Shown here one piece after another: positions 9,576 through 55,622 of a stretch of 64,000 nt of DNA. The position numbers and the translations under genes are program-made. The notes under the pieces are model-generated. The model was given only the letters and a program-made list of their open reading frames with translations, did not search any database and was not told where the DNA came from. This stretch comes from Nitrosopumilaceae archaeon (GTDB lineage: Archaea > Thermoproteota > Nitrososphaeria > Nitrososphaerales > Nitrosopumilaceae). Each line of letters begins with the position of its first letter. Position 1 is the first letter of the stretch. The DNA is taken from assembly GCA_035631875.1 (NCBI GenBank), contig DASQHX010000009.1, positions 363,281 through 427,280 on the forward strand, in the 5' to 3' direction.

Positions 9576-9691
9576 TAACTGTTTCTATTTCTAGATCTGT
9601 TAAGTAGTTGAGTGTTATACTAATGATCTTCTTTGTGTTCAGTTTCGGGGGTTGTTTTAGAATTGTTATAGATTTCCTACGCTAGAAGCAA

Positions 9692-9979: not shown

Positions 9980-10181
9980 TGAAATTTATGATTCGCATAG
10001 TTTTTATCAATTCATGAGGTTGGATATAGAATACTGTTCTAATTTTTTGATGCCAACTTGATAAGACTTTCTATCTTATTCTGACCAAGTTCAAGCTTGA
10101 TCCCAGTTGTTCTGCAGGAGTTTTCTTTATTGAACTGTGATCTCTAATGAAATTGTAATCAATTATTATTCAGCTACACTA

Positions 10182-18331: not shown

Positions 18332-18373
18332 ATAAATTCTCCAATCTTAACGATTAGGAACCACTATTTATAA

Positions 18374-39472: not shown

Positions 39473-40621
39473 ATGAATTTAGATTATGATGTTTCTCAAG
39501 ATTTTCCGTTTAAAGATACAATCTATCTAAACAACGCATCAACTTCATTGATGCCAATTTCTAGTATAAAGGCGATGACTGATTTTCTTGTAAGTTATAA
39601 TGAGATGGGGCCAGATTCAAAAAAAGCAGATAGTTACGTAACGGAAAGATTATTTCTTGCAAGAAAGGCTGTCTCACATTTAATAAAATGCAAACCAGAT
39701 GAGGTAATCTTCACTCAAAGCACTACAGATGGTGTTAATATGGTTGCCAGTGGTTTGAAATTAAAACAAACATCAAACATCATAATTCGTGATTCAAATC
39801 ATGAGCATCCTGCAAATTATTATCCATGGATACGTTTAGCTCAAAAGTTGACGGTAAATAATTTGAAAGTCAACAATATTGGTTATTTTGACCTTGAAGA
39901 ATTAAAAAATATGATTGACAATAATACTGGTCTTGTTGTACTAAGTCACGCTCTCTTTAACACAGGTGCAGTTTTACCTGTAGAACAAATTGGAAATATC
40001 TTAGCTGAAAAAAATATTCCATATTTCATAGATGCTGCACAAACAGTTGGTTGTCTTGAAGATGTTGATGTAAATAAAATCAAGTGTAATTTTATGTCTT
40101 TTAATGGTTCAAAGTGGCTCTGTGGTCCGATGGGAACTGGAATATTTTTTTGTAAAAAAGAATCAGGTGAAATGCTAGAACCGCTTCAGGTAGGTGGAGA
40201 GTCAGCCTTATTTCATGAAGGTAAGATTGCTTACAAGGAGATGCCAGCTAAATTCCAAGCTGGATTTCGCAATTGGGCAGGCATAGCTGGTCTTGAGGCA
40301 TCTATTGTCTATTTGTTACGATTAGGTCTTGAAAATATTAGAAAAAAGAATATCAAACTTGCCAATATGATGCGTGAGGAGTTATCAAGAATTCCAGGAG
40401 TTGTCTTGTACGGACCTGATGAACCAGAAAAAAGAACGAGTATTGTTTCTTTTTCACTTCTAAATCAAGACCCAAAAATTGTTGTAGAAAGACTCGAGAA
40501 GCAAAACATGATTCTGGCAGTGCGAGAAATCTTTGCTCAAAAAGTGATTAGAGCTTCTATGCACTTTTTTAATACAGAATCTCAAATTCTCAAAGTAATA
40601 GATGTAATTAAAAAAAATTAG
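39473..40621 (+). CDS. Class V aminotransferase (cysteine desulfurase-like)
   Basis: A 382-residue PLP enzyme. IYLNNASTSLMP at the start, TQSTTDGVNMVASGL for phosphate binding, IDAAQTVG with the PLP Asp, and Lys in SFNGSKWLCGPMG. This is the SufS/isopenicillin-N-epimerase-like group; a clear catalytic persulfide Cys loop is not obvious, so desulfurase activity is uncertain. Confidence 0.82.
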   Translation: MNLDYDVSQDFPFKDTIYLNNASTSLMPISSIKAMTDFLVSYNEMGPDSKKADSYVTERLFLARKAVSHLIKCKPDEVIFTQSTTDGVNMVASGLKLKQTSNIIIRDSNHEHPANYYPWIRLAQKLTVNNLKVNNIGYFDLEELKNMIDNNTGLVVLSHALFNTGAVLPVEQIGNILAEKNIPYFIDAAQTVGCLEDVDVNKIKCNFMSFNGSKWLCGPMGTGIFFCKKESGEMLEPLQVGGESALFHEGKIAYKEMPAKFQAGFRNWAGIAGLEASIVYLLRLGLENIRKKNIKLANMMREELSRIPGVVLYGPDEPEKRTSIVSFSLLNQDPKIVVERLEKQNMILAVREIFAQKVIRASMHFFNTESQILKVIDVIKKN

Positions 40622-40622
40622 T

Positions 40623-40883
40623 TTATTGTTCTTGTTCTTCTATAACCATCATTGTTAAGGTTGAATACACTTTGTCTATTTTTCTGATTTTGTTTGTTAT
40701 GATGTTTCGTAAAAGATCCATGTTATCTGCTGTTATTTTTACAATTATGTCATACACACCATATACTCCTTGGACTTCGTATCGAATGGATTTTCCCTCC
40801 TTATCCAGTATTTCTTTAATTTTCTGAATTATTTCTACGTCAGAACCTAAATCAGAATTTAACAAGATATAGGTTGTAGGCAT
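40623..40883 (-). CDS. Stand-alone Lrp/AsnC ligand-binding (RAM) domain
   Basis: An 86-residue protein that is only the effector-binding domain of Lrp regulators: YILLNSDLGSDVEIIQKIKE, GVYGVYDIIVKITA and a final TLTMMVIEE strand. There is no HTH. Such stand-alone RAM proteins bind amino acids and partner with full Lrp proteins. Confidence 0.85.
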   Translation of the reverse strand: MPTTYILLNSDLGSDVEIIQKIKEILDKEGKSIRYEVQGVYGVYDIIVKITADNMDLLRNIITNKIRKIDKVYSTLTMMVIEEQEQ

Positions 40884-40947
40884 AAGGTAATTCTCGTTTC
40901 ACAATATTTAACCTTTGACTAGGATTTATCTTAAGTGCAATTACCCG

Positions 40948-42012
40948 CTAGAAAACAAACTGAAATCTATTTCGTTTATAATTTTCTGCTAATTTTCCAG
41001 TTATAGGAATTTTATTTCCACAAAATTTACAGTTATTATTTTCGTCCATATTCCAACCTTGAATATCAAAACCATATCTTTTGACAACTATGTTATTACA
41101 TTGAGAACAGTACGTATGCTCAAGCGGATGGCCAGGTACGTTTCCAAGATATACGTATGCGAGTCCTTCTTTTTTCGCAATTTCATAGTGTTTTTCAAGT
41201 GTCTTAATTGGTGTTGATTCAAATTCCATCATTTTATAATCTGGGTGGAACCGCAAGAAATGAATTGGCATTTCGGGCCCAAATTCATCATAAATGAACT
41301 TACAGAGCTTGGTTGCATATTCTAAATTATCTCCAACTTCTGGAATTATTAAATCAGTTATTTCTACATGAATTTTGGTTTTATCTCTAATTTCTTTTAG
41401 AGTATCAAAAATTGGTTTTGGATCAGGAACCCCGATGTATTTTCTGGTGAAATTAGGTTCGGCATTACCCTTAAAGTCAACAGTAATACAATCAAGAAAT
41501 TCATCCATCATCTTTACTGTTTGTGGTGTATCGTAACCATTTGAGACAAAAATATTGAAAAGACCTTTTTTTCTTGCAATAACACCACAGTCGCGTGCAA
41601 ATTCGATGAAGATGGATGGCTGGTTATAGGTATAGGCTATTCCATCAGCACCATATCTTATGGCTTGATCTACTACTTGTTCGGGAGTCATTTCAATTCC
41701 TTCTACTTTTCTTCGTTGACTGATGTCATAGTTTTGACAATATTTACACAACCAATTACAACCAGTAGTAGCTATGGAATAGATGCTAGTACCAGGTCTG
41801 TAATGAATAACTGGCTTTTTTTCTATAGGATCTACATGACCAGAAATCACTCTACCGTAAACAAATAACTCGAGTTTACCGCCTTTATTTCCTCGAACAC
41901 CACAAAGACCAATCTGTCCATTGCCAATTTCACAATATCTAGCACATGCTGTGCAACGAACCTTATCATTTGGCATCTTTTCATAGAGTATTGCTTCTTT
42001 GGACGTTACCAT
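40948..42012 (-). CDS. AmmeMemoRadiSam-system radical SAM enzyme (AmrS-like)
   Basis: A 354-residue protein. Radical SAM cluster motif CNWLCKYC (CxxxCxxC), preceded by an N-terminal Cys cluster (CTACARYCEIG and LCGVRGN) and followed by C-terminal zinc-like CSQC...CKFC. HVDPIEKKPVIHYRPG is typical of this group, as is KYIGVPD. Partner AMMECR1/Memo genes are not in the window. Reaction unknown. Confidence 0.88.
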   Translation of the reverse strand: MVTSKEAILYEKMPNDKVRCTACARYCEIGNGQIGLCGVRGNKGGKLELFVYGRVISGHVDPIEKKPVIHYRPGTSIYSIATTGCNWLCKYCQNYDISQRRKVEGIEMTPEQVVDQAIRYGADGIAYTYNQPSIFIEFARDCGVIARKKGLFNIFVSNGYDTPQTVKMMDEFLDCITVDFKGNAEPNFTRKYIGVPDPKPIFDTLKEIRDKTKIHVEITDLIIPEVGDNLEYATKLCKFIYDEFGPEMPIHFLRFHPDYKMMEFESTPIKTLEKHYEIAKKEGLAYVYLGNVPGHPLEHTYCSQCNNIVVKRYGFDIQGWNMDENNNCKFCGNKIPITGKLAENYKRNRFQFVF

Positions 42013-42040
42013 TTACTACTTAAAATTATCATATAAGCTA

Positions 42041-44176
42041 TCACGTCACTGCATGCATAGAAGTTTTTTCTGGTCTCAGCTTTTTAATTGCATTTAATAG
42101 ATCTTCTTGCGTAATCTTTATGGATTTAACTGATTTTTCTTTGTTGTCTACGTATCGCTTTATTGCAGTTATTGCTGCTCTACTACAAGCACCCTCAATT
42201 TCCGCTCCGCTAAATCCTTCTGTCATTTCCACAAGTTTTGTTAAATTCACATCTTCTGCTAGGGGCTTTTTCATGGTATGAATCTTGAAGATGTTTTCAC
42301 GTCCTTTTGAATCTGGTAATGGCACTTCAATTATTCTATCAAATCTTCCAGGTCTCAATAATGCAGGATCAACAATGTCTACTCTGTTGGTAGCACCAAT
42401 CACTAGCACATTATTCAATTCTTCAAGACCGTCAATTTCTGTTAGAATTTGTGAAACTACTCTTTCGGTAACATGTGAATCTGAACTTCCAGAACCTCTG
42501 GCTGGTGCTATTGCATCTATTTCATCTAAGAATATTATACATGGAGCAGCTTGTCTTGCTTTTCTGAAAATCTCTCGCACACCTTTTTCAGATTCTCCTA
42601 CCCATTTTGATAAGAGCTCTGGGCCTTTAATGCTGATAAAGTTAGATTCCGTAGTATGTGCAAGAGCTTTTGCAATCAATGTTTTTCCTGTGCCTGGTGG
42701 ACCATGTAATAAAATTCCTTTTGGTGAAGTAACTCCAGTATACTCAAATGCTTCTTTGTGTTTTAGTGGCCATTCAACAGCTTCGTGTAATTCTTCCTTA
42801 AGTGATTCTAATCCTCCAACATCATCCCATGTGACATTTGGAACTTGAACTAGTACTTCTCTTAATGCAGATGGTCTTACTTCTTTTAATGCATCTTTAA
42901 AGTCATCATCAGTAATCATGATTTTTTGTAAAATTTTTGCAGGAATTTTTTCTTCTTCAAGATCTAATTCAGGTAAGATTCTTCGTAATGATCTCATTGC
43001 TGCCTCTTTTGCAAGCATTTCTAAATCAGCGCCAACAAATCCATGTGTTACTCTTGCAATTTGATCTAAGTTGACTTTGTCATTAAGAGGCATGCCACGT
43101 GTATGAATATCCAGGATTTCTTTTCTACCTGCTTCGTCTGGTATTCCAATCTCAATTTCACGATCGAATCTTCCTGGTCTTCTTATTGCAGGATCAAGTG
43201 AGTCTGGTCTATTTGTTGCTGCAATGACAATTACTTTGCCTCTTGATTTCATTCCATCCATTAAAGTCAATAACTGTGAAACTACTCTTTTTTCTACTTC
43301 GCCAGTAACTTCTTCCCTTTTTGGAGCTATTGAATCAATTTCGTCAATGAATATTATACTTGGTGCACCCTCTTCAGCTTGCTTGAAGATATCACGTAAT
43401 CGTTCTTCGCTTTCTCCATAGTATTTTCCAATAATTTCTGGCCCACTAAGTGAAATGAAATGAGAGTTTGTTTCTCCTGCCACTGCTTTTGCTAAAAGTG
43501 TCTTTCCTGTGCCTGGTGGACCATACAACAATACTCCTTTTGGTGCTTCCACACCTAATTTTTCAAATAATTCAGGATGTCTCATTGGAAGCTCTACCAT
43601 CTCGCGTATCTTTTGAACTTCTTTCTTTAGTCCTCCTAATTCATCATACGTAATTCGTGGAATACTGTGGTCAATTGCCTTAGTCATACTGCCTAGCTTG
43701 AATTTAGTTTGTTCAGTTATTATGACAGGTTTTGCAGATGGAGTAGTACCTGTTACAATCAATTGAGTTCTAGCGCCAAGATGTGTCATTACAATAAGTG
43801 TGTCTCCATTTGTTAAGACGTGACCATCATAGTTTACTTGCATATATTCTTGTAATCCTTCCTCACTTAGTTTTTCAATTGGTGACAAAACCACTTGTTC
43901 TGCTTCTTTTGCGTCTACTTTTTTGACAGTTACTCTGTCATTTATGCCAGCATCAATATTATGTCGCGTTAATCCATCAATCTTTATGATTCCAGTACCA
44001 TAGTCTTCTGGAGAACCAGGCCATAACTTTACATGACTTTTTCTATTACCGATAATTTCTAAAACTTGGCCAACTTCCCAGTTGTTATCCTCAATTATTT
44101 TTGGATCTACTAGGGCAATGCCCTTGCCTACATGGCGTTGTGAGATTTCTTCTATTTTTAAAATTATTTCGCTCAT
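42041..44176 (-). CDS. cdc48: Cdc48/VCP-type AAA ATPase
   Basis: A 711-residue double AAA protein: N-domain (about 1-175), D1 with [12 protein letters not shown] and IIFIDEID, D2 with [12 protein letters not shown] and IIFLDEID, both followed by SRH arginines (RRPGRFD and LRPGRFD). It unfolds proteins, feeding the proteasome (psmB here). Large reading frames on the opposite strand here (for example 42285-42848) are shadows. Confidence 0.97.
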
Positions 44177-44208
44177 AAATTAATCACCATAAAAAATAGG
44201 GGTTGGAT

Positions 44209-44709
44209 TTATTCAACCTCCACAGTTTTTCCTTTTGGTTTTTCGTCTTCTTTCAGTTTGAACCTTACTTCAAGAATTCCGTTAGCATATGTTGCCTTTA
44301 CAGAATCCTCGTCTACCTTTTGTTTTATAGGTACTTTGGCACTATATTTTTTCTCGCCATGTTCTGCATCAAGATTTACTGTGCGTCCTTCAACTACGAT
44401 CTTGATGTCTTTCTTTTCTACACCTGGCATTTCAGCTACAAGTTTCAGAACTTTTTCTTTGTCATCAACTAGAACGTCAACAAAAGGTTCTCTTACATCA
44501 GATGTTGGTAGAAGTGCTGATTTTACGTTTCCATATTCTTTTACAACTGGTTTACCGTCTGGCCCAATTGTCATGGTGTAACCATAATAGTATGGACCAT
44601 AGGTCTGGAGGTTGTCTGAATCCTTGAACTCTTCGAATATATCGTCCATATTCATGAATGGTCGAGACATTCTTTTGAAGAGGTTGTCGAACTCGTCATT
44701 TAGGAACAT
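44209..44709 (-). CDS. hsp20: Hsp20 / alpha-crystallin small heat-shock protein
   Basis: A 166-residue protein with a variable N-terminus and an alpha-crystallin domain (about 75-160): EPFVDVLVDDKEKVLKLVAE, MPGVEKKDIKIVVEG and ANGILEVRFKL. The C-terminal I-x-I motif is not evident. Its promoter has a 24-bp palindrome between the TATA box and the start, suggesting regulated expression. Next to cdc48 on the same strand. Confidence 0.93.
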   Translation of the reverse strand: MFLNDEFDNLFKRMSRPFMNMDDIFEEFKDSDNLQTYGPYYYGYTMTIGPDGKPVVKEYGNVKSALLPTSDVREPFVDVLVDDKEKVLKLVAEMPGVEKKDIKIVVEGRTVNLDAEHGEKKYSAKVPIKQKVDEDSVKATYANGILEVRFKLKEDEKPKGKTVEVE

Positions 44710-44724
44710 GTTATAATCACTTAC

Positions 44725-44748
44725 ATAATGTAATACATATTACATTAT
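44725..44748. promoter_or_regulatory. 24-bp palindromic operator in the hsp20 promoter
   Basis: The arms ATAATGTAATA (44725-44735) and TATTACATTAT (44738-44748) are perfectly complementary with a CA centre. It lies between the minus-strand TATA region and the hsp20 start. A second, wider repeat (TGTAAG at 44759-44764, CTTACA at 44778-44783) is close by. Confidence 0.7.
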
Positions 44749-44755
44749 ATATAGT
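44746..44755 (-). promoter_or_regulatory. TATA box of hsp20
   Basis: On the minus strand this reads CTATATATAA, about 37-46 bp before the hsp20 ATG, predicting a short leader of roughly 10-15 nt. It touches the outer end of the palindrome. Confidence 0.55.
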
Positions 44756-44788
44756 TTTTGTAAGTATATACCGTATTCTTACATAAGA

Positions 44789-44800
44789 CTATTATATATG
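44789..44800 (+). promoter_or_regulatory. TATA box of the gene at 44821
   Basis: An ACTATTATATAT stretch ends 20 bp before the TTG start at 44821, as expected for a leaderless transcript. Confidence 0.5.
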
Positions 44801-44820
44801 ACAATTAATATTATTTATGC

Positions 44821-45480
44821 TTGAAGACTGCAAATGTTTCTGTCCCAGATGCTGTACGGGAAATTATCACTAGGAACCGCTCAATTTATGATTGCATAAA
44901 GATGGATTTGATAAATTATACTGCCCTAGCTGTGAAGATCCAAAAAGATGTTGAAGCTCAGGTTGGTCCTGTAAACCTGAACACCGTTGTTGTTGCAATC
45001 AAAAGATATGCAGATTCATTTGATAAAAAAGACGAAGTTCAACAAGAACCTGTTTTAAAAAATGCCAGACTTTCATTAACAGATGGAATTTTAGATATCA
45101 AATTTGCAACTGATGAATTTGGGGCAAATGATACTGCTACGCTTATGGATAAATTTACACAGATAGATCCTGATTACGAGTTTTTTAGATTCACAGATTC
45201 ATTTAGAGTTTTAACTGAAGACATATTGGATGTAAGAAAACTTTTAGAATCATTTCCATTTCAGAAAAACAATTTTCAAACAGGATTAGCAAAAATCAGC
45301 ATACGTGTTCCAGAATCTCAAAGTGGTTCTGATATAGTTTCTTATGTATCTGAGATACTGCATAGTAATGGAATAGAACTTGTAAATGCCTTTTTTGGCC
45401 AGGATGACATCATCATTGTATTAAAGGAGAAAGACGCTGCAAGAGCCTATGAAATTTTGCGTTCTGAGATTTCAAGATAG
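44821..45480 (+). CDS. ACT-domain-like regulatory protein, hypothetical
   Basis: A 219-residue protein starting at TTG 44821. The N-terminal part is helical (VPDAVREIITRNRSIYDCIK); the C-terminal part has two ACT-like beta-alpha-beta elements (ARLSLTDGILDIKF and LAKISIRVPESQSGSDIVSY, then NAFFGQDDIIIVLKEKD). This fits archaeal ACT-like proteins that sense amino acids. No enzyme motif. Divergent from hsp20. Confidence 0.65.
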   Translation: MKTANVSVPDAVREIITRNRSIYDCIKMDLINYTALAVKIQKDVEAQVGPVNLNTVVVAIKRYADSFDKKDEVQQEPVLKNARLSLTDGILDIKFATDEFGANDTATLMDKFTQIDPDYEFFRFTDSFRVLTEDILDVRKLLESFPFQKNNFQTGLAKISIRVPESQSGSDIVSYVSEILHSNGIELVNAFFGQDDIIIVLKEKDAARAYEILRSEISR

Positions 45481-45533
45481 TATGTATCTTGGCAATATCT
45501 AATTAAATTTTAAATATAAAAGATAGAAAATAT

Positions 45534-45851
45534 TTAGACACCAAGAGATTCTGGCTTTGAGATTTCTAAAAAGACCTTATCTCCTACAGAAAGTCCAAGT
45601 TCTTTGTATTCACGCATATCCAGTTTCATTGAAGTAATTCCACCTGCTTGGCCAAATACCCCTCCAGACATCATTTTGTTAAGGCCTTTTACCATATCAT
45701 CCATATTCGTAAAACCCATAACATTTGAACCAAAAGGAGACATTGGCTGGTTCTGCTCTCTAAAATCCTTAGGTGATGAGAGAGAAATTACCACATATGG
45801 CGCACCATCAGGCGCGGCATCAATACGAACTACTACGTACTCTTTCTTCAT
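45534..45851 (-). CDS. Conserved hypothetical protein
   Basis: A 105-residue soluble protein: a beta-rich start (KKEYVVVRIDAAPDGAPYVV), a Met/Gly-rich flexible middle (about 35-70) and a C-terminal strand pair (YKELGLSVGDKVFLEI) like an AbrB or SPT-type barrel end. Not recognised. It lies on the minus strand between two plus-strand genes. Confidence 0.55.
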   Translation of the reverse strand: MKKEYVVVRIDAAPDGAPYVVISLSSPKDFREQNQPMSPFGSNVMGFTNMDDMVKGLNKMMSGGVFGQAGGITSMKLDMREYKELGLSVGDKVFLEISKPESLGV

Positions 45852-45967
45852 ATAGTCTTACCAGTTTTTATGATATTTTATTGTTCCCTTAGTATTTTTA
45901 TTTTAATATTTGAAGGAATGATAATCAGACCCATAGGATATAACCGGCAAATTGGGTTTAAGTGTAA

Positions 45968-47326
45968 ATGTCTGAAGGAAAGAAGAGAATTCTGATTCTA
46001 GGTGGGGGATTTGCTGGCGTAGAATGTATGCGAAAACTAGAGTCATATTTTATGAATGATACAGATATTGAAATCGTTCTGGTAAGCGAAGACAATTTTC
46101 TTCTTTTTACTCCCATGCTTCCCCAAGTAGCATCAGGGATGATTGAGACACGACATGTTGTGATACCAATTAGGACTCTTTGTAAAAAAACTATATTTTA
46201 TGAAGCACAAATCAAAAACATTGATCCCTATGGAAAGATTGTAACTCTTACTGGAACTAATGAACGACGCGGTATTTCTTTACATTATGATTTTCTTGTT
46301 CTTGCATTAGGAAGTCAAACAAACTTTTTTGGAATTGATAAAATGGAAGAGAGGGCATATTCCATGAAGACGTTAAACGATGCAGTAGTTTTACGAAATA
46401 GAATAATAGACATGTTAGAGCAAGCAGAGAATGAAAGCGACCCAATTCTTAAGAAAAGTTTACTTACACTTGTAATAGTTGGAGGTGGATTTGCTGGAAT
46501 TGAAACAGCTGGTGAATTAAATGATTTTGTACGTGATGCAAGAAAATATTATCCAGATATAAAAAAAGAAGACATTCGAGTAATTGTTTTAGAAGCAGCC
46601 TCATTTATTTTACCAGGATTTAATGAGAAACTAGCTAAATTTACACTAGAAAAACTAACAGAGCATGGGGTAGAGGTCAAACTTGGTAAGAAACTCTCAA
46701 GTTTTTCTGGTTCTGAGGTAATAATAGAAGATGTAGTTGATCCAAATAAAACTGCAGCAAGCCAACCTGTTATAGAAGCAATTCAGACAAGAACTTTGGT
46801 TTGGACTGCAGGTATTACCCCAGTTGATATAATAAAAAAATCTGTCTTTAAGACAAATAGGGGAGGAATTGTTGTAAATGAATTTTTGGAAGCTCCAGAT
46901 TTTCCTGGAGTTTTTGCCATTGGAGATTGTTGTTATTTACTAAATCCACAAACCAATAGACCATACCCCCCAACTGCGCAAAGCGCAGAAGCTGGAGCAA
47001 AAATTGTAGCATATAATTTACAAGCCATAATAAAAAATAAACAAAAAAGAAAATTTGAATTTTCTTCAAGAGGTCAGATGGCAATAATAGGAAAGAGATC
47101 AGCTATTGCTACCATATTTGGATTACATTTACATGGTTTTGTAGCATGGTGGATTTGGAGGACTGTCTACCTTTCTAAAATTCCAAGACTTGACAAACGC
47201 GTAAGGATTTTTCTTGATTGGACTACAGATCTATTCTTTGACAGAGACATATCCAGATTGAAAATCTTCAGACGTGAATTACCTGTAGAATACAAGGAGC
47301 TTGATGAAGTTGATGATGTTTGGTAA
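45968..47326 (+). CDS. ndh: Type II NADH dehydrogenase-like flavoprotein
   Basis: A 452-residue protein. FAD-binding GGGFAG at about residues 12-17; second Rossmann motif LVIVGGGFAGIETAGEL near 168-184; TWTAG-like VWTAGITP and the FAIGDCCYL C-terminal FAD motif. The last 80 residues have amphipathic/membrane-binding segments (FVAWWIWRTVYL). It likely passes electrons from NADH to quinone without pumping protons. Confidence 0.92.
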   Translation: MSEGKKRILILGGGFAGVECMRKLESYFMNDTDIEIVLVSEDNFLLFTPMLPQVASGMIETRHVVIPIRTLCKKTIFYEAQIKNIDPYGKIVTLTGTNERRGISLHYDFLVLALGSQTNFFGIDKMEERAYSMKTLNDAVVLRNRIIDMLEQAENESDPILKKSLLTLVIVGGGFAGIETAGELNDFVRDARKYYPDIKKEDIRVIVLEAASFILPGFNEKLAKFTLEKLTEHGVEVKLGKKLSSFSGSEVIIEDVVDPNKTAASQPVIEAIQTRTLVWTAGITPVDIIKKSVFKTNRGGIVVNEFLEAPDFPGVFAIGDCCYLLNPQTNRPYPPTAQSAEAGAKIVAYNLQAIIKNKQKRKFEFSSRGQMAIIGKRSAIATIFGLHLHGFVAWWIWRTVYLSKIPRLDKRVRIFLDWTTDLFFDRDISRLKIFRRELPVEYKELDEVDDVW

Positions 47327-47433
47327 AAATAGTAAACCCCCCTTTTACGCATGAAAACTGACGCTGTCTAGGTAATATCGAACGTTATGATTTGTCGGAG
47401 AATCTTTAAGATCAATATGGAAGTAATGATGTC

Positions 47434-47763
47434 ATGAAACATCTTTACATTATTCTTGTTATTGGCATTTTCATTGTACCACAATTGGCTTATGCTCAGA
47501 TGACACAAGAACAAGCTAACAAAATTTTGACTTGGTTTTACATATTCGAAATAGTGTTTTTCACTCTTTGTGGACTAGGGACATTTTATGCTATGCGAAT
47601 AGTTCTTCGACGACTCTCACAACAACGAAATCTTGACCGTAAAAATCGTACTATTAACGTTGTAGTGACGATTGCAGTAATAGTACTAATTTTTCGCTTT
47701 GTTGATGTACCGAATTTTATTATGTCCATCATAGAAAAATCACCCACGTCTTTCCTACATTGA
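47434..47763 (+). CDS. Small membrane protein, hypothetical
   Basis: A 109-residue protein with a signal-like N-terminal helix (about 3-21, ending AYA), a membrane helix (about 34-56) and another (about 72-92), joined by a basic loop (RRLSQQRNLDRKNR). No motif. It ends where the Cas1-like fragment begins. Confidence 0.6.
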   Translation: MKHLYIILVIGIFIVPQLAYAQMTQEQANKILTWFYIFEIVFFTLCGLGTFYAMRIVLRRLSQQRNLDRKNRTINVVVTIAVIVLIFRFVDVPNFIMSIIEKSPTSFLH

Positions 47764-47879
47764 CTCTCAAAGATCACCAAAACCACTATGATATTAAATA
47801 CTTGAGAGGATACGGCTCTCAAATTTCAGTAAAAAACCAAAGAATCGTTCTCAAAAATGGTGTTATGATTCTTTTTTAA
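47760..47879 (+). pseudogene. Cas1-like N-terminal fragment (relic)
   Basis: A 39-codon open frame from TTG 47760. Its middle, YLRGYGSQISVKNQRIVLKNG, looks like the N-terminal beta strands of Cas1 integrases (as in thaumarchaeal Cas1 or casposon Cas1). After NG the frame turns into a short Met-Ile-Leu-Phe tail and stops; reading one base later gives Y-D-S-F, which would suit a continuation after a +1 shift. Nothing of the catalytic domain remains. No CRISPR array or other cas gene is in the window. The assignment is by eye, so only moderately sure. Confidence 0.4.
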
Positions 47880-48546
47880 GAGATTTTTTTCTTTTAACTA
47901 AAATTCCTACTGCTACGCCTACGCATATTGCGATACCTATGCTAATCTCATACTTGAGATTACTTTGTGGTTGATTTGATTCGTTTGAAACTATTTGAAA
48001 TGAGTTTAAGACGTCATCAAAGTTTTGTAAATCATCATCAAAATGCTTTTCCTGATTTGCATAAGTAATTGTATAGAATTTGTCATTTGTTGATATGATA
48101 GCTTCTTTAAATTTAATTATGAATCCTTGATTTTGAGATAAAAATTCACCTTTTGATTCTGAAATGTAGCCATCATACCCATTGATTTTTTTGGTTTCAT
48201 CAGATAGGAAAATCAATCTACCAGCATCAACTGCAGGTTGAAGTCGTGCTTTCTGATCTTTAACGTATTCTTCAAGTAAAGTTCCGTTTGAATTCTCAAC
48301 AGAAACGGAGATGGCTGGTGCAAATCCATCTACTTTTGTACCAACTATAGCAACATCAGGTGCATTTGGTTGTGTCTTTTTTAATTCTTGTACTGTCCAA
48401 TTATCTGGTGGATGAAAAGAGAATCCTAATAGTTGATTAGTATAATTTCCTGTTTCTTCTGTAGAATTGGAACTTGCAAGTATTTGAGGTATCAAGCTTA
48501 CAAAAAGAAGAAAACAAATGCTTGGTGCAAGTAAGTTAAAACGCAA
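47863..48546 (-). CDS. Secreted PsbP-like domain protein with C-terminal anchor
   Basis: A 227-residue protein: signal peptide (about 1-24), then a domain starting NYTNQLLGFSFHPPDNW, a pattern of PsbP/MOG1-like proteins (a short peptide followed by GFSFHPPDNWTV), and a C-terminal membrane helix (about 202-218) with a basic tail. The domain often sits in archaeal exported proteins of unknown use. Confidence 0.62.
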   Translation of the reverse strand: MRFNLLAPSICFLLFVSLIPQILASSNSTEETGNYTNQLLGFSFHPPDNWTVQELKKTQPNAPDVAIVGTKVDGFAPAISVSVENSNGTLLEEYVKDQKARLQPAVDAGRLIFLSDETKKINGYDGYISESKGEFLSQNQGFIIKFKEAIISTNDKFYTITYANQEKHFDDDLQNFDDVLNSFQIVSNESNQPQSNLKYEISIGIAICVGVAVGILVKRKKSLKKES

Positions 48547-48632
48547 TAACTGAATTCGTCAGTCCCTATAATAAAAGCCAATTGTAAAATTAAAATTTTG
48601 TAGATTATATTACGACATTGAAAAACAAACAC

Positions 48633-49334
48633 ATGGGAGAAGTTTATGCTGTAGGAGTGGGTCCTGGATCTCCTAGATACATAACTGATGTTGTAAAAGA
48701 AATAATACTATATTCTGATATCGTGGTTGGATACAAATACACACTTAAAACAATTGAGCGACTTTTGGTCAATAAAGAAGTATGTGAGATAACCATGCAA
48801 GACCAAGAAGAAACCTATCAGAAAATTGCAAAAACATTAGGTGATAAGACATTAGTTGTTCCATTCACTGGTGATGTGAATTTCTCTGAATCCGAAGTTG
48901 TAGACAGACTAATTGAGATTTTTGGAAATGTGCAAATAATTCCCGGCATTAGTTCTGTTCAGGTTGCAGCATCAAAAGCAAGAGTGCCTCTTGATAAAAG
49001 CAAAGTAATCACTATGCATATAACTACAAGTATTGAAGAAAAAAAGATCGAACTACAAAAGGCATTATTAGATGGATATAGTGTGGTGCTTGTACCAAGA
49101 CCGTGGCCTAAAGATCCTTCAAAACACTTTATGCAGTCTGAGGTTGCTTTCTATTTAAAAGATCATGGATTTGATACCTCAAAAATGAAAGTTCATGTTT
49201 TTGAATTTTTAACTACAGATAAAGAAACCTCGTTTGTAGGTATGGTTAAGGATTTAGAGGGAAGGCAGTTTTCAGATCTTTCAGTCATGGTTTTTGATCA
49301 AACAAAACTTGAATCATATATTAATTTTAAATAA
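48633..49334 (+). CDS. cbiE: Cobalt-precorrin-7 C5-methyltransferase
   Basis: A protein of 233 residues from ATG 48633 (a TTG five codons upstream is less likely). SAM-dependent tetrapyrrole methylase: VYAVGVGPGSPRYIT, TGDVNFSES and IIPGISSVQVAASKA, with the late VPRPWPKDP loop of the CbiE/CobL N-terminal group. CbiT is not adjacent. Adds to the cobamide set (bluB, cbiH). Confidence 0.87.
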   Translation: MGEVYAVGVGPGSPRYITDVVKEIILYSDIVVGYKYTLKTIERLLVNKEVCEITMQDQEETYQKIAKTLGDKTLVVPFTGDVNFSESEVVDRLIEIFGNVQIIPGISSVQVAASKARVPLDKSKVITMHITTSIEEKKIELQKALLDGYSVVLVPRPWPKDPSKHFMQSEVAFYLKDHGFDTSKMKVHVFEFLTTDKETSFVGMVKDLEGRQFSDLSVMVFDQTKLESYINFK

Positions 49335-49352
49335 AATAATTTTACTTTTGAT

Positions 49353-50975
49353 TTAGTGAAGCCCTGGATTATGAGATGGGGCTGTTATGGTTTGTGAAGA
49401 AGAGGCAGGGATTGAAACTATAACACCGTTCATCCATGTATATGATGGATCATAAAATCTGATGATCCCCACGTCGTTTATTGTAACTTGAAATGATTGT
49501 CCTGGTGCAAGAGGGCCACTATCAAATTTTCCATCTGGTGTGAAAGGATTATCATTTTTTTGTGTGCTATGTCCACTAAGAACTCTGTGAGATACTGTAT
49601 CATTGTTTGTCCAAATAATAGTAGTACCAGGAATGATTTGTAGATCAGTTGGTAAGTAATACTGATTGGTATAAAGTTGGTTTTGTTGTGATGCAGAACC
49701 TTGGGGTTGATACGAACCTGGTTGTATGCTTATTTGAATGGGTTTACTCTGTGTTGATATTTGTGAAATTGATGAGATTACACCATTAATCCATGTGTAT
49801 GAAGGATCGTAGAATGTTATGGTACCTACACGATTCATTGTGTATTGAAATGATTGTCCTGGTAAAATGGTGCCACTGTTAATTTGATTATCTGGTTGAA
49901 ATGAAGGTGCAATTGCTGTCGGATTGGCAGAGCCTCTTTGCCCTTGTGTTGTTGTAGATAAAATTCCACTAAGAAGTGTGTGTGGTACAGAGTCGTTGTT
50001 TGTCCAGACAATGGTTGTACCTGGAGTAATTTGGATAGATGGTGGAGAAAGAACTTGTCCTGTTTTCATAGTTGATGCTCCTTGTAATATTGAAATTTGA
50101 GTTGTCTTCACTTGTGTGGTAGTTACTGATTTTGAGGTTATGGCACCTGACATCCACAAATATGAAGGATCGTAGAATGTTATAGTTCCAACATTATTTA
50201 CTGTATATTGAAATGTCTGTCCTGGTGCAATAACAGGACTGATGATTTGTCCATCTGGAGAAAATGAACCTTTTGCATTTGTTGTTGATGTTGATATAAT
50301 TCCGCTTTCAATTTGGTGTGGTACAGAGTCGTTGTTTGTCCAGACAATGGTTGTACCTGGTGTGATCAATATGGAAGATGGTGAAAAATAATTTTGATTA
50401 AATTGATTAGATGCGCCTGGTACAATACTTACTTGGAATGTATTTCCTTGATTTTGTGTTGGTGTAGTTTGTGTCGGAGTGATTTGTGTTGGTGGGATAA
50501 CATTAGAAATCGTTGAGGTTATTTTTGCACTGAAAGCAACTTGGAATGGCTCAGTTGTGCCAGTTATCTTTCCTGTAAAGTAATAAACTGATCCTTCTTG
50601 ACTTGTTTGAACCAGTCTCCCAAATATGTTAACATGAATTGTGTCACCGTTTGAATTTTGGGCATCACCTGTAACTACTATAAATTGTCCATTACGCAAT
50701 AGTGTTGTAGCCCAAGTTCCAGAGTTAAGATAGTTATTGCCAGAAATAGAAACTAAACCACTTTCTAGTGTTACCGGAGTGTTACCATTGTTCAAAGTCC
50801 CTGTTGAAAACTGTAAATCAATCTCGGAACTTTGAATGGTTTGAGTTCCTACTACAAAACCTGTGGCTTGTACTAGATATTTGTTATCTGACATTAATTG
50901 AGAATAAGCGTGAGGTAATGAGATTGTTAGTAATATTCCTGTAATTGAGATTAGTAAAATTAATCCAAGTTTCAT
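49353..50975 (-). CDS. Surface protein with three degenerate cupredoxin-like repeats
   Basis: A 540-residue exported protein (signal about 1-25). After a beta-sandwich N-terminal domain (about 30-155) come three plastocyanin-like repeats of about 115 residues (about 180-285, 295-410, 415-525). Each has LxITPGTTIVWTNND-type strands, a His after S(V)P/VSH, and the end FYDPSY(L/T)W(M/I). In true blue copper proteins the last loop is C-x2-H-x2-M; here Cys is Asp and His is Tyr in all three, so copper binding is probably lost while the fold stays. Two repeats share a 44-bp identical DNA stretch (near 49981 and 50318). Confidence 0.82.
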   Translation of the reverse strand: MKLGLILLISITGILLTISLPHAYSQLMSDNKYLVQATGFVVGTQTIQSSEIDLQFSTGTLNNGNTPVTLESGLVSISGNNYLNSGTWATTLLRNGQFIVVTGDAQNSNGDTIHVNIFGRLVQTSQEGSVYYFTGKITGTTEPFQVAFSAKITSTISNVIPPTQITPTQTTPTQNQGNTFQVSIVPGASNQFNQNYFSPSSILITPGTTIVWTNNDSVPHQIESGIISTSTTNAKGSFSPDGQIISPVIAPGQTFQYTVNNVGTITFYDPSYLWMSGAITSKSVTTTQVKTTQISILQGASTMKTGQVLSPPSIQITPGTTIVWTNNDSVPHTLLSGILSTTTQGQRGSANPTAIAPSFQPDNQINSGTILPGQSFQYTMNRVGTITFYDPSYTWINGVISSISQISTQSKPIQISIQPGSYQPQGSASQQNQLYTNQYYLPTDLQIIPGTTIIWTNNDTVSHRVLSGHSTQKNDNPFTPDGKFDSGPLAPGQSFQVTINDVGIIRFYDPSYTWMNGVIVSIPASSSQTITAPSHNPGLH

Positions 50976-51031
50976 AATTGAATTAAAGTTTAAAGTTGTA
51001 TTTAATTAATAGGTAAAATTTATCAACATAA

Positions 51032-51767
51032 TTAGGCAATTCCTGGCTGCTTGTCTTTCCTAGCCAGATCATCCATATAGTTCATTTGTTGCTCCATGAA
51101 CTTTTTCCTTTTTTCTTCTTCTTCCAAGTCTTTCATATCTAGAGGTTTTATTTTCAATAATTCTAAAAGTTTGACAAGGATTGTTTGTGTTGCTTTTGGT
51201 TGTATAATGTTCGGATTATCAATTTCCATAAGAATGCAAATACTGTCAAGATTTTTTTCTTTTGCAATACCAAGCACTAATCCATTAAAGCCCGTTATCT
51301 GTCCTTTGCCATTTAGAAGTTCGATTTTTTGTTTTTTTAATAGATTAGTAAGATTAGTTGATGATGCTACACCAAATAACTTTGGTTCAGTAGGATTGGG
51401 AGATCTCAATGCTGCTCCAATGGAGTATAATATATCGACTTTGAGTTTCTTAGCCATCTCAACTACCTTATAACACAATTCATACAGTCTTCTTGGATCT
51501 GAGGGATTAAATTCGCCAGAAAAAATTACAAGATTTTCTTTTTCACAATAATGAAACTTGTAGCTTGATTGATTATATTGAATCAAGCCTTTTTCATAAG
51601 ACACAGCAGGAGGCCAAAATGCATAAATTTCAGCAAATAATTTTGCTTTTAGTTTTTTTACAAGAAAATCCATTCCCTATGCCTGCAACGTTACCCATAT
51701 CTGGAAGGGCGGCAATCATGTTTGGGTTTTTTAGTTTTGGAAGAGTATGGATTTTTAGACCAAGCAT
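51032..51767 (-). CDS. PAC2-family proteasome assembly chaperone-like protein (apparent frameshift)
   Basis: The long frame (51032-51673, 213 residues) begins at a Met that is internal by homology. Upstream, in another frame, lies LKNPNMIAALPDMGNVAGIG from an ATG at 51767, the expected PAC2 N-terminus. The two join smoothly if one base is removed from the CCC run at 51675-51677 (minus strand GGG). So either a real frameshift mutation or a sequencing error splits the gene. Total length would be about 244 residues. PAC2 proteins are thought to assist proteasome assembly. If real, the product would lack its N-terminal strand. Confidence 0.72.
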
Positions 51768-51803
51768 TATTGCTTTGTATTTTATGTTAAAATAAAAATG
51801 AAT

Positions 51804-52337
51804 CTAAGATTTTAAATGAGTAATAGATCCGTATTGACTTATCATTGCAGATTCAATGAATCCTCCCGCAAGTAGTAAAGCGATTACAATTCCTATTTCA
51901 ATTATGGTTGGTCGGATTTCCTGTTTTATTGGATTTTTTTTAATTATGGTCCAGATGAGGATGAAGCTTCGTGACATTCCTATGGAATAAGCTGCAAGTT
52001 CCATTACTCCAAAGGGAGATATTATTAGAATAGTTATTGGTGGAATTTTGGCAAGTAATGGAGATGTAGATGCAATGGCATTAAAAGCAAGCCCTGTTGA
52101 TGCGGATGCAAACAACCCCCAGGCAATTCCAAACCCTGGGATAAACATTGGTAATCCAATTGAGGCATTATGTGTAAATATTCCAATTGCATTAATTCCT
52201 TCTACTGCCTGTTCAAATTCTTTAAGAAATGCTTTAGAATCTTCTTGTGGCATTTTGATTTCAGCTCCTATAGAAAATGATGTGGCAAAAATTCCAACAA
52301 AAATAAACCCAATTAAAATTCTTTTTTTCCTAAACAT
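51804..52337 (-). CDS. SpoIIM-family membrane protein
   Basis: A 177-residue protein with four to five membrane helices; the start MFRKKRILIGFIFVGI and the segment NAIGIFTHNASIGLPMFIPGFGIAWG match the stage II sporulation M family found in many archaea. LISPFGVMELAAYSIGMS is also a family hallmark. Archaea do not sporulate; the role is unknown but membrane remodelling has been suggested. Confidence 0.8.
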   Translation of the reverse strand: MFRKKRILIGFIFVGIFATSFSIGAEIKMPQEDSKAFLKEFEQAVEGINAIGIFTHNASIGLPMFIPGFGIAWGLFASASTGLAFNAIASTSPLLAKIPPITILIISPFGVMELAAYSIGMSRSFILIWTIIKKNPIKQEIRPTIIEIGIVIALLLAGGFIESAMISQYGSITHLKS

Positions 52338-52416
52338 ATTTTGAGTTAAAATAAACTCTATTTGAGGGTTGACAGTTTGAAACAGATTTAATTAAAAGTT
52401 CTATTATGAGTCCTTG

Positions 52417-53844
52417 ATGAAAGAAGATGTCTCATCTGCATTGACCTATGCGTTAAGTAGGGGTTTTCAGATTCATCCTGATGCTTTTAAAATACTTGAA
52501 AAAATTGATGTAAAAGAGCTTGAGAGAATAATCAAACAAGTAGTAAGAGAAAAGACAAAGCAAAACTTGTTTTTGATAAATCAAAATGATTTGAAAATGT
52601 TTGTTGATTCTGGGATTGATGAAAACATAGAAAATAATCATGTAATTTTATCAGATCCTACAAAAAAAATCACATCAGCAGAAGGAATTGATGGTTTTAG
52701 TGCGCTTTTTGCAAGCCGGTACTCAAAATTATTAAAAATAATATTGCAGAGGTCTCAATCTAAAAAACTAAGCCCTATTGACACCATTAAAAGCGGTAAA
52801 ATCAAAGAGGAGGTCTTTGTAGCTGGTCTTTTGATGGATAGAAAAATAGACAGAGATGTAACAAAACTTGTTGTAGATGACCCGACTGGTTCTCTTGAGG
52901 TATTGGTGTTTAACAAGGACCTACAAGAGACGGCCAATTCCCTCCTAATGGACCAGTTTGTAATGTTTACAATTGTTCCAGGGAAAAATGGTGGTTTTAT
53001 TGTAAAAGAATTGGTTGTACCAGATGTTCCAGACCATGTTACAAATCGTTCAAAGACTGAGACCTATGCTGTTTTGATCTCTGATTTGCATGTAGGAAGT
53101 AAGTATTTCATGGAAAAAGAGTTTACAGAGTTTGTAGAGTGGCTCTCAAGTCCAGACCCAATAGCAAGGAAAGTTCGCTTTGTTTTGGTTGGTGGTGATG
53201 TGGTAGACGGGATTGGAATTTTCCCAAACCAGGATAAGGAATTACTTTTAGTTGATACTAATCAACAGATGTTAAAAGCAGCTCAATTATTGGATAAAAT
53301 TCCAAAACACATCAAAGTTTTCATAATTCCAGGAAACCATGATCCAGGTCGTAGAGCTCTACCCCAACCTGCAATTCCAGAAAAACACAATCTAACTTTA
53401 TGGAATAGGGAAAATTTTTTCATGTTAGGTAATCCCTCCATGTTAGAGCTAAACGGTGTCAAAATCTTAATGTTTCATGGACAAAGCTTGGATGATGTTG
53501 TTGGAACCACACCTGGGCTAAGTTATTCACAGCCTGCAAAGGCAATGCGTGTTTTACTAAAAGCAAGACATCTTAGTCCTATCTATGGAAAACGAACTCC
53601 AATTGCGCCTGAGACAGAAGACATGATGGTGATAAATGATGTTCCAGACATTTTTCATTCAGGACATATTCATGTTGTTGATCTTGACATGTACAAGGGT
53701 ACACTTATTGTAAACTCTGGAGCTTGGCAAACACAAACAGCATATCAAGCAAGTGTTGGGGTCACACCAACTCCGGGAATTGCCGTTATTGTAAATTTGG
53801 CCACAATGAAGGTTTTTACCAAAGACTTTACTGAAAAAGAATAA
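52417..53844 (+). CDS. polB: DNA polymerase D small subunit (DP1)
   Basis: A protein of 475 residues from ATG 52417 (TTG 52414 directly upstream). Layout: N-terminal helical part (about 1-60), OB domain (about 115-215), and a calcineurin-like phosphoesterase domain (about 215-460) with SDLHVGS, GGDVVDGIG, PGNHDPGRR, MFHGQS and GHIH, which carry the 3'-5' exonuclease metal ligands. It pairs with DP2 (58128-61499). Convergent with cdc6; only 2 bp apart. Confidence 0.96.
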   Translation: MKEDVSSALTYALSRGFQIHPDAFKILEKIDVKELERIIKQVVREKTKQNLFLINQNDLKMFVDSGIDENIENNHVILSDPTKKITSAEGIDGFSALFASRYSKLLKIILQRSQSKKLSPIDTIKSGKIKEEVFVAGLLMDRKIDRDVTKLVVDDPTGSLEVLVFNKDLQETANSLLMDQFVMFTIVPGKNGGFIVKELVVPDVPDHVTNRSKTETYAVLISDLHVGSKYFMEKEFTEFVEWLSSPDPIARKVRFVLVGGDVVDGIGIFPNQDKELLLVDTNQQMLKAAQLLDKIPKHIKVFIIPGNHDPGRRALPQPAIPEKHNLTLWNRENFFMLGNPSMLELNGVKILMFHGQSLDDVVGTTPGLSYSQPAKAMRVLLKARHLSPIYGKRTPIAPETEDMMVINDVPDIFHSGHIHVVDLDMYKGTLIVNSGAWQTQTAYQASVGVTPTPGIAVIVNLATMKVFTKDFTEKE

Positions 53845-53846
53845 TT

Positions 53847-55064
53847 CTAGATTAAATCTTCAAGTGTTAGGTCTTCTTTGAATGCTTTTTTTATTGTGTC
53901 AGGTTGTAATGTAAGACTGAATTTTTTTGTCCTTCCATGCATTCCTTGGTGAATAATTTTTCCTGAAATTAGACCCGTCATCTCTATTTCACTAAGTATT
54001 TGGGTGATGCGCCTTTGTGTAAGCTCCTTTTGTCTGATAATCTTGCAGAGGTTTTTGTAGGAATGATAAATTTCTCCAGTTGTTGTCCCGTTTGCTTTCA
54101 TTACGGCTAAAATTAACAGTTTTTCATGGAGTGGATAAGAATTAAGTGCAGTGGTTTCCTTGTCTTCTTCCATTTTTAGTGAGGCTTTTCTGATGTGTTC
54201 TTCTTTGATATGGTCTGCTTGTTCTCGTTCTGCTATTTCTCCAGCTACACGTAAGAGATCAATGGCTCGTCTTGCATCTCCATGTTCTTGGCCTGCCATT
54301 GCAGCACAGAGGTTTACTGCTGCCTGCTCAATTGCCGTGGAAATGAATGCAACTTTGATTCTTTCTTCGAGAATTTCTTTAATTTGTCCTACACTATAAT
54401 TTGTAAATACAATTTCCTCCTCACTTAGGCTGCTCAAGACCCTTGGATCTAGTCTTTCCTTGAATGTGAGATCGTTTGAGATTCCTACTAGTGTAAGTGA
54501 ACCTTTCTTTAGTCTCTCATTTGCTCTGGTAAGTGAGTAAAAGACATCTTTGCCTGTTTTTGATACTAGCTCTGCGAGATAATCAATTTCATCTACTACA
54601 AAGACCGTATTAAGAGAGTTTTTTTCTATAATAGAAATGATTCTGTTAAACACCTCACTAATGGATAGACCGGTGCTTGGTAGATCTTTTTGAGTTGTTA
54701 GCCCTAACTGGCGGCCAAATTTTACCAATAATCCATAGAGTGTTGTTTCTTCCTTAGAGTTTGCATAAACCAATTCTATTGGAAATGACTTTTCTTTTGC
54801 CCTTTCCTGTATCTTGTTTAGTATCTTCTTTACAACTAGGGTCTTTCCAGTACCTGGTTTTCCATAAACAAGTAGGTTAGATGGACGAGATTTTTTTAAT
54901 AATGGAATAAGTGATTGTGTGACTTTCTTTTGCTCTTCATCTCTATGAAGAATGTTTTCTGGGATAAAGGCAAAATGTAGTGCTTCTCTATTTTTAAATA
55001 ATGATTTTCCGTTTGCTACGTCATCAAGTAATTTGTCTATTGGGTCGCTGTATGCTAAAGCCAT
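53847..55064 (-). CDS. cdc6: Orc1/Cdc6 replication initiator
   Basis: A 405-residue initiator ATPase: Walker A YGKPGTGKTLVVKK near residue 65, Walker B VFVVDEIDYLAEL near 157, sensor arginine region (FKERLDPRVLSSL), and a C-terminal winged helix (about 310-400) that binds origin ORB repeats. It reads away from the ORB-bearing gap just upstream, as is typical for archaeal origins. Confidence 0.96.
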   Translation of the reverse strand: MALAYSDPIDKLLDDVANGKSLFKNREALHFAFIPENILHRDEEQKKVTQSLIPLLKKSRPSNLLVYGKPGTGKTLVVKKILNKIQERAKEKSFPIELVYANSKEETTLYGLLVKFGRQLGLTTQKDLPSTGLSISEVFNRIISIIEKNSLNTVFVVDEIDYLAELVSKTGKDVFYSLTRANERLKKGSLTLVGISNDLTFKERLDPRVLSSLSEEEIVFTNYSVGQIKEILEERIKVAFISTAIEQAAVNLCAAMAGQEHGDARRAIDLLRVAGEIAEREQADHIKEEHIRKASLKMEEDKETTALNSYPLHEKLLILAVMKANGTTTGEIYHSYKNLCKIIRQKELTQRRITQILSEIEMTGLISGKIIHQGMHGRTKKFSLTLQPDTIKKAFKEDLTLEDLI

Positions 55065-55120
55065 TGAGATCGATCCGATCGCGCTTTGGAATTTGAATAG
55101 ATCATTGAATAATTGTTAAC

Positions 55121-55148
55121 AAACAAGTGCGATCATATACACTTGTTT
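55121..55148. repeat. 9-bp inverted repeat near the cdc6 start
   Basis: AAACAAGTG (55121-55129) and CACTTGTTT (55140-55148) with a 10-bp spacer. It is 57 bp upstream of the cdc6 start codon, so it could be part of the cdc6 promoter or an origin element. Confidence 0.55.
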
Positions 55149-55155
55149 CTGAAAA

Positions 55156-55313
55156 ACCCACACACCAATACTTCCACTCTAGCTTAATTAAAAAATATTT
55201 TTTTAAAGAAAATAAAATAATTAATGATAAACCAAATTTAGTTATTCTATTCTAATTGTATTATCAAAGATAGAATCCATATGTAGACAGAGAAGAAACA
55301 AAGGTGTGTGGGT
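55156..55313. repeat. Inverted 11-bp motif flanking the AT-rich unwinding region
   Basis: ACCCACACACC at 55156-55166 and its exact reverse complement GGTGTGTGGGT at 55303-55313, 136 bp apart, bracket the AT-rich core. This symmetry resembles paired initiator sites facing each other over an unwinding element. Confidence 0.6.
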
Positions 55314-55379
55314 ATGCCTAAAACAAAATTAACATCATGTGAACAAAATGTTAAACTAGATGTGGAAAAGCCTAATTTG

Positions 55380-55409
55380 ACCCCTTTATTTCCAGTCCAG
55401 GCGTGAAGT
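55380..55409 (-). promoter_or_regulatory. ORB-like element 1
   Basis: On the minus strand it has ACTGGAAATAAAGGGGT, close to the archaeal origin recognition box with its dyad and G-string (Sulfolobus-type AGTGGAAACAAAGGGG). Same orientation as element 2. Confidence 0.75.
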
Positions 55410-55441
55410 CAGGTCTTAACAATGTTAAGGTTGTAGAATAG

Positions 55442-55471
55442 ACCCCTATGTTTCCAGTCTAGGCATGAAAT
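55442..55471 (-). promoter_or_regulatory. ORB-like element 2
   Basis: Minus strand ACTGGAAACATAGGGGT; differs from element 1 at only a few places over 30 bp and lies 62 bp from it. A shorter copy of the outer part (CTAGGCGTGA) is at 55526-55535 without the G-string. Confidence 0.75.
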
Positions 55472-55501
55472 TCATACATATTGTGGTATAAAGGGAAAGG
55501 T

Positions 55502-55531
55502 GCCTAGTTAAGGTGCCATAACAAACTAGGC
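55502..55531. repeat. 8-bp inverted repeat with partial ORB
   Basis: GCCTAGTT (55502-55509) and AACTAGGC (55524-55531) with a 14-bp spacer. The right arm overlaps the partial ORB-like CTAGGCGTGA. Lies 91 bp before the HTH gene start, so it may also control that gene. Confidence 0.5.
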
Positions 55532-55622
55532 GTGAGCTAGGCAGTGAATGTTAACAAACACACTGGTTAACAAATATTCTTTGATCTGTTCAAGTGTTAA
55601 GGTGTTAACCCAATCGATCACA

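Follow-up and report, generated by a model that had tools for sequence, protein, structure and literature searches.

A probable left-end casposon fragment carrying one gene between two host genes of a Nitrosopumilaceae archaeon, and similar one-gene units in related archaea

The window, a stretch of 64,000 nt from a Nitrosopumilaceae archaeon, holds at 47323-47864 (~540 bp) what is very likely a left-end-anchored, right-truncated fragment of a family-1 casposon, made up of a casposon end, a passenger gene and a stub of cas1. That the fragment itself is a relic is close to certain. The same one-gene arrangement of casposon end, slot gene and cut cas1 appears, by sequence comparison, to be general in related archaea, with different passengers. 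What is new is the recurrent one-gene unit, together with different occupants of one fixed site.

The starting point was a 39-codon open frame in which the original prediction had seen the interrupted N-terminus of a Cas1. The frame is present at 47760-47879 on the forward strand, begins with a TTG start codon and reads MTLKDHQNHYDIKYLRGYGSQISVKNQRIVLKNGVMILF in the ORF listing. As a bare 39-mer it gave no match in sequence searches of Pfam, NCBIfam, PADLOC and PDB; discarding the Cas1 finding on these null results alone would have been wrong. The 39-mer matched in 19 of 61 related genomes, with E-values down to 5e-10, and the best of these matches are the starts of open proteins of 331-390 aa. 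Seven full-length relatives were aligned and three were tested by Pfam, all three being Cas1 (PF01867; E = 9.8e-44, 2.5e-48 and 1.2e-46). BLASTP of the window frame against one full-length casposon Cas1 showed 22 of 34 residues identical (65%; E = 7e-14), and profile–profile comparison gave a probability of 97.9. The profile search proposed as a check detected the similarity once a casposase profile was used (E = 1.2e-8; model positions 4-38 of 355). With these three scores the Cas1 likeness is well above chance, and homology indicates that the frame corresponds to ~34 codons from the start of a casposase, as the Cas1 of family-1 (thaumarchaeal) casposons is called.

The frame is cut off as predicted. 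Beyond about codon 34-35 the cas1 reading runs into host sequence, so that ~34 of ~331-390 residues are left in the window and the C-terminal catalytic domain is missing. The active-site residues of Cas1 named in the available text of PMC4046053 fall past this break. A continuation of Cas1 had also been suspected in another frame, from the residues YDSF. This is partly borne out: one relative with a longer cas1 piece (L047) goes on with CYDPF at that point, and its alignment with the window DNA scores 38. The empty host site of two sister genomes, G002 and G004, gives these bases a higher alignment score (59-61), however, so they are probably host DNA with chance or micro-homology.

The unit is bounded on the left by the 3' end of a host gene of the NADH dehydrogenase type 2-like (NDH2) kind (45968-47326, forward strand; Pfam Pyr_redox_2, E = 7.1e-46, and NDH2_C, E = 1.3e-10). 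On the right the boundary is a convergent host gene for a PsbP-like exported protein (47863-48546, reverse strand; Pfam PsbP_2, E = 4.2e-8), which is also present in the empty-site genomes G002 and G004 and there adjoins the NDH2-like gene. The casposon left end, here called LEAD, covers ~94 nt at 47323-47415 of the forward strand (nhmmer score 71.3, E = 2.5e-20, with a profile that has the window copy as one of its 11 seeds); with the window LEAD alone, BLASTN found copies 81-86% identical in G001, G003 and G004. LEAD begins at the NDH2 stop codon and continues with a C-run and then an AT-rich stretch. It contains CTTTAAG ~25 nt ahead of the next start codon, a promoter-like motif that may mark a promoter. 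The slot (passenger) gene follows at 47434-47763 on the forward strand, an ORF of 109 aa with a hydrophobic N-terminus and further hydrophobic stretches, and its TGA stop codon is provided by the cas1 start (tTGAC). The casposase (cas1) 5' stub of ~34 codons, assigned by homology to casposases, occupies 47760-47864 of the same strand. Alignment to the empty sites and to cas1 shows that the remainder of the open 39-codon frame (47865-47879, forward strand) is a junction zone of mostly host DNA from the end of the PsbP-like gene. Further along, 49353-50975 of the window encodes a 540-aa exported protein with repeated copper-binding (plastocyanin-like) domains, a type that we take to be typical of ammonia-oxidising archaea.

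The suggestion that the frame is the remnant of a casposon is borne out by LEAD, which is common to the fragment and to complete casposons of related genomes that have cas1, PolB and inverted end repeats. The complete casposon L031 has LEAD ends at 9583-9684 and, inverted, at 18318-18395, cas1 at 9949-10953 and a B-family DNA polymerase (DNA_pol_B_2, E = 1.2e-28); a polymerase candidate in L034 had no Pfam match. Full-length cas1 relatives lie in elements with a B-family DNA polymerase, often adjoining aEF-2, and the inverted LEAD at the far end of L031 adjoins aEF-2. This placement agrees with published family-1 casposons, for which the available text of PMC6563490 and PMC4046053 gives the 3' end of aEF-2 as the insertion preference. 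LEAD stands directly ahead of cas1 in L033 and L036, and one gene lies between them in L031, L032 and L034. Back-to-back LEAD pairs ~10-16 nt apart, pointing outward, were observed in L036 (10867-11048), L029 (427-618) and L031 (9508-9684), which suggests tandem insertions at one target.

The window unit shares with the family-1 casposons of Thaumarchaeota (NitAR1-C1 and others), as described in the available text of PMC4046053 and PMC6563490, the kind of Cas1 and the preference for 3' ends of protein genes, of which aEF-2 is the commonest; its LEAD starts at the NDH2 stop codon. Its terminal repeat is that of the complete relatives found here, in which the B-family DNA polymerase is present. 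Unlike family-1 casposons, the unit has one end only, at 47323-47415, and the same LEAD profile found no inverted copy on its other side. Instead of an intact cas1 it has the 34-codon stub, and a protein-primed-type PolB is missing, the 109-aa frame and the stub being all that lies between the host genes. There is no target site duplication, at most a few bases being shared by comparison with the empty sites, and the single passenger gene sits at a non-aEF-2 site.

The NDH2 site was compared among sister genomes. The window genome (G000) and G001 (L044) are 92% identical to the left of the unit and 90% to the right. Between LEAD and stub, G001 has an unrelated gene of 186 aa, weakly HEPN-like under the Pfam cut-off, where the window genome has that of 109 aa. 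In G002 and G004 the site is empty and the two host genes are directly adjacent. A look at the same locus in sister genomes for a full Cas1 or casposon, also proposed with the prediction, thus recovered a casposon-type unit with a cas1 stub in G001, G002 and G004 being empty. Both passenger genes of this locus appear from the searches to be orphans. The 109-aa protein, run against 250 family genomes (E ≤ 1e-3), found itself and one weak match with internal stop codons (E = 3.6e-4), while the 186-aa protein found only itself at E ≤ 1e-6. The neighbour of the G001:C15 unit, searched for in six genomes, matched only itself and so gave no empty site for that unit.

When GTDB contigs were scanned with an alignment built from stubs and full-length starts, 64 loci with a cas1 5' end were obtained, or 65 with the window; some are the same places as in the 61-genome search, and L260 and L266 are near copies. 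The scan loci are labelled Nitrosopumilus, Nitrosarchaeum, Nitrosotalea, Nitrososphaera and unnamed Thaumarchaeota, with one contig labelled Alphaproteobacteria. The latter, L294 (JABMNR010000221.1), comes from a MAG classified as Alphaproteobacteria; it has a casposon end, a cas1 stub and a gene that is weakly HEPN-like, and is probably a mis-binned thaumarchaeal contig. LEAD was found within 1.6 kb upstream of the cas1 start at 46 of the 65 loci (the profile seeds including the window copy), and a frame of at least 45 aa ending between -40 and +60 nt of that start at 49. Both were present at 38 loci; at six, LEAD runs straight into cas1 without an intervening gene.

Of the 49 slot ORFs, four that ran off the edge of the stretch were excluded ahead of clustering, and the 45 complete ones fall into 42 families at E 1e-3, the short ORFs among them being predicted only. 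Pfam was run on 20 slot genes and neighbours. Slot matches above the cut-off were to methyltransferase, nuclease-like (SNase), GNAT, HAD, AbiV-type HEPN, TPR, universal stress protein and glucose/sorbosone dehydrogenase families, and most other genes had none. A methyltransferase-type gene occurs behind LEAD in both G000 and G004 (54% identity), in the former at aEF-2 and in the latter at a different locus. An exact ATGA overlap of slot-gene stop and cas1 start was seen at 24 of the 65 loci. As a joining signal it was not counted as strong, because cas1 always offers that TGA and about one frame in three would end there anyway.

The length of cas1 is below ~560 nt at 49 of the 65 loci, at most 105 nt at 18 and at least 1000 nt at 14. 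These extents are chained TBLASTN pieces with an error of tens of nt or more either way; those of L302 and L254 are overstated, and those of L279 and L292 are limited by contig ends. Among the first 26 copies the stub had seemed fixed at 75-105 nt, as if cas1 contained a defined right end. This idea was dropped, since the family search and the 65-locus set show a continuum from 81 nt to full length. Two-ended mini-elements were rejected as a general explanation, an inverted LEAD being present downstream, within the stretch examined, at five of the 49 loci with cas1 below 560 nt. The profile search of the 61 genomes found ~25 amino-terminal remnants (starting at model positions 3-7 and ending by 93) against ~5 carboxy-terminal ones, an excess that is partly expected because cas1 starts beside the casposon end.

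LEAD, gene and stub occur in at least three further places of the window genome. By gene names assigned from sequence, these are aEF-2 (L038), a pair of cobalamin genes (L039) and the stretch behind a GMP-synthase-like gene (L114, a remnant). At the cobalamin locus of the window genome ~20 nt of the aEF-2 3' end stand ahead of LEAD, as they do at several other loci without an aEF-2 gene, so some units seem to be descended from aEF-2 residents. In G004 the cobalamin (CbiA) locus (G004:C36:22889-23068, near L161 and L127) holds the last 60 codons of a casposase, where G000 has LEAD, gene and stub. A second recurrent target was seen at L250, L267, L280 and L298, where LEAD starts at the stop codon of an isocitrate/isopropylmalate-dehydrogenase-type gene. 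The encoded protein has ...TKQITDNL or ...TKHITDNL as its C-terminus, and the single copy run against Pfam, L280, matched Iso_dh (E = 5.8e-98).

Behind aEF-2 at L048 (G002:C30, 1713-3916; the same as L289) lies a row of several LEAD copies that differ in their genes. There, a 140-aa gene ends in a 26-nt miniature cas1 start, and a 68-aa gene with a full stub follows directly (E = 0.31), a possible two-cassette array. The corresponding search of upstream regions gave three matches in 58 real regions against one in 290 block-shuffled ones, two of the three without a clear layout, which amounts to a hint of tandem cassettes.

For the formation of the window unit, the chances of a one-ended insertion closed by microhomology seem to us about even. 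In this route, casposase would attach a single casposon end at a host gene's 3' end, away from the aEF-2 site that is its cognate target. The other side would be closed where the element, broken inside cas1, is joined to the host at a short homology, leaving no target duplication and costing little or no host DNA. We infer it from loss-free, duplication-free junctions at two loci and from the N. koreensis family-1 casposase, for which the available text of PMC6614799 describes single-end insertion into plasmids that lack the cognate target. The left flank GGTAAAAAGAG and the right flank GAATCATTC of G001 together restore the empty site, sharing at most a few bases, and hence without host loss or long duplication; GAATC is common to cas1 and host at the right junction. 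At the proteasome-gene locus of G036, compared with G257 and G259, the flanks again rebuild the empty site with no loss and at most a few duplicated bases, TCTA being common to cas1 and host at the right junction.

This route is the weakest step of the explanation, drawn as it is from two or three junctions and short microhomologies. The continuum of stub lengths speaks against it, as slow erosion would give the same. So does the right junction of the window genome, which lies ~20 bp deeper into the host than that of G001, with ~20 host bases replaced by cas1 sequence; host bases were thus lost there. Nor is truncation tied to off-target sites, since truncated and full elements both occur at EF2, the cognate site. 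The EF2 panel comprised 30 matched genomes, 28 of them processed and 22 with the aEF-2 stop codon located by pattern; ten loci have EF2 upstream, three with full-length cas1 and seven with cas1 cut.

Nearly as likely as one-ended insertion is that a complete casposon sat at the NDH2 gene end and that a later deletion removed it from cas1 to the right boundary. The stub would then be a product of ordinary decay, kept beside the passenger gene because deletions into that gene were selected against. Progressive loss predicts N-terminal cas1 remnants of all lengths, as are found, and cas1 holds GTAAAA motifs like the target end that could recombine with a right-hand target copy. Nevertheless, at the two loci described above the right flank starts exactly where the left flank ends, with no other casposon leftovers and no host loss, and a deletion would have to stop precisely at the host border each time. 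The scarcity of an inverted LEAD downstream of short cas1 remnants also tells against it.

Compatible with either route, and to be held tentatively, is a swap of the slot by homologous recombination, with the casposon end as the left arm and the cas1 stub as the right, in which a newly arriving casposon or a further unit would replace the passenger gene of a fixed locus by its own. G000 and G001 do carry unrelated genes between the same arms at one locus. Moreover, over nt 45-90 their stubs share 87% identity, against no more than 71% when either is set beside the other 23 copies compared, and over nt 0-45 only 73%, as expected from a crossover inside the stub. However, each filled genome is nearest an empty one in its NDH2 flank (G000–G002, 96.7%; G001–G004, 96.3%), so the filled and empty states do not reflect one simple insertion, and related casposons could equally well have inserted on two separate occasions. 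The ~20 bp between the right junctions of G000 and G001 also argue against exchange. The identity pattern of the stubs could have come about by recombination within the stub or by two such insertions.

Very improbably, the frame is a conserved small protein that merely resembles Cas1: it is open in G000 and G001, but the stubs end at many places, several of them with stop codons or frameshifts, and a casposon end stands upstream at most of the surveyed loci. The lost CRISPR adaptation locus that the original prediction had offered as its other origin is the least credible reading, the peptide being Cas1-like but its nearest relatives being casposon Cas1 proteins with casposon ends and PolB; it is already contradicted by the casposon end common to the unit and complete casposons. 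The claim that the frame lies outside any CRISPR context stands, with no CRISPR-like array within 40000-56000 of the window and no Cas protein among six proteins of the stretch scanned with Pfam. A PF01867 search of the window genome (99.99% complete) found no intact Cas1, only one fragment under the cut-off (E = 0.006).

The cas1 stub is dead: its catalytic domain is gone, and the genome encodes no intact Cas1 that could serve it. All it does at present is supply the stop codon of the passenger gene. The casposon end, with its presumed outward-reading promoter, would drive that gene, and retention of the gene under this promoter is probably why the unit persists. A wider scheme seems rather unlikely: family-1 casposons would have a dedicated one-gene slot, placed between terminal repeat and cas1, and casposase would scatter 'end + one gene + cas1 start' by one-ended insertion among host-gene 3' ends, at which the delivered genes would be kept and exchanged.

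Similar features are known from other mobile elements. MITEs and other non-autonomous elements are short transposon derivatives that keep terminal sequence without a transposase. The window unit is such a short derivative, but MITEs keep both ends, whereas it has no second end and is broken inside cas1. In 5'-truncated LINE insertions and one-ended transposition, one end is exact and the other variable, joined at short homologies. The window unit also has one exact end; it is, in contrast, a DNA element with a Cas1 integrase, and its mechanism would be as proposed above. Integron gene cassettes combine a promoter, a slot with highly varied single genes, orphans included, and a constant sequence behind each. 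The casposon units resemble them in the promoter (presumed here), the varied slot and the constant sequence behind the gene. They differ from integrons in having no tyrosine integrase and in that the constant sequence is the 5' end of the transposase gene, and we know of no attC hairpin in them. On the site-specific capture and excision of cassettes by an integrase, the observations comprise a difference in slot gene at one locus and the diversity of slot genes; the tandem array is a single weak case (L048/L289).

The CRISPR adaptation module is generally traced back to casposons. In the available text of PMC4046053 and PMC6563490, family-1 casposons are described from few genomes so far. Element-specific genes of thaumarchaeal casposons are mentioned in PMC6563490, but its available passages on these casposons contain neither a slot between end and cas1 nor stub-bounded units, and 'truncated' and 'MITE' are absent from its main text. 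No description of a one-gene, stub-bounded slot was found in the literature searched, the coverage of which was partial, so that absence from print is not established.

As the stubs show, casposon left ends occur widely among Nitrosopumilales-type archaea, including where no Cas1 is left. Each casposon end tends to bring one small gene, mostly unrelated between loci, and sister species can differ in the gene that occupies a given chromosomal spot. If the one-ended insertion is true, the units would be natural products of the single-end activity seen in vitro for the family-1 casposase. They could be a source of many lineage-specific small genes of marine ammonia oxidisers. If the casposase does scatter and exchange one-gene slots, ammonia-oxidising archaea would possess a Cas1-based system of gene delivery and cassette exchange, matching integrons in function and built around the ancestor-type of the CRISPR adaptation enzyme.
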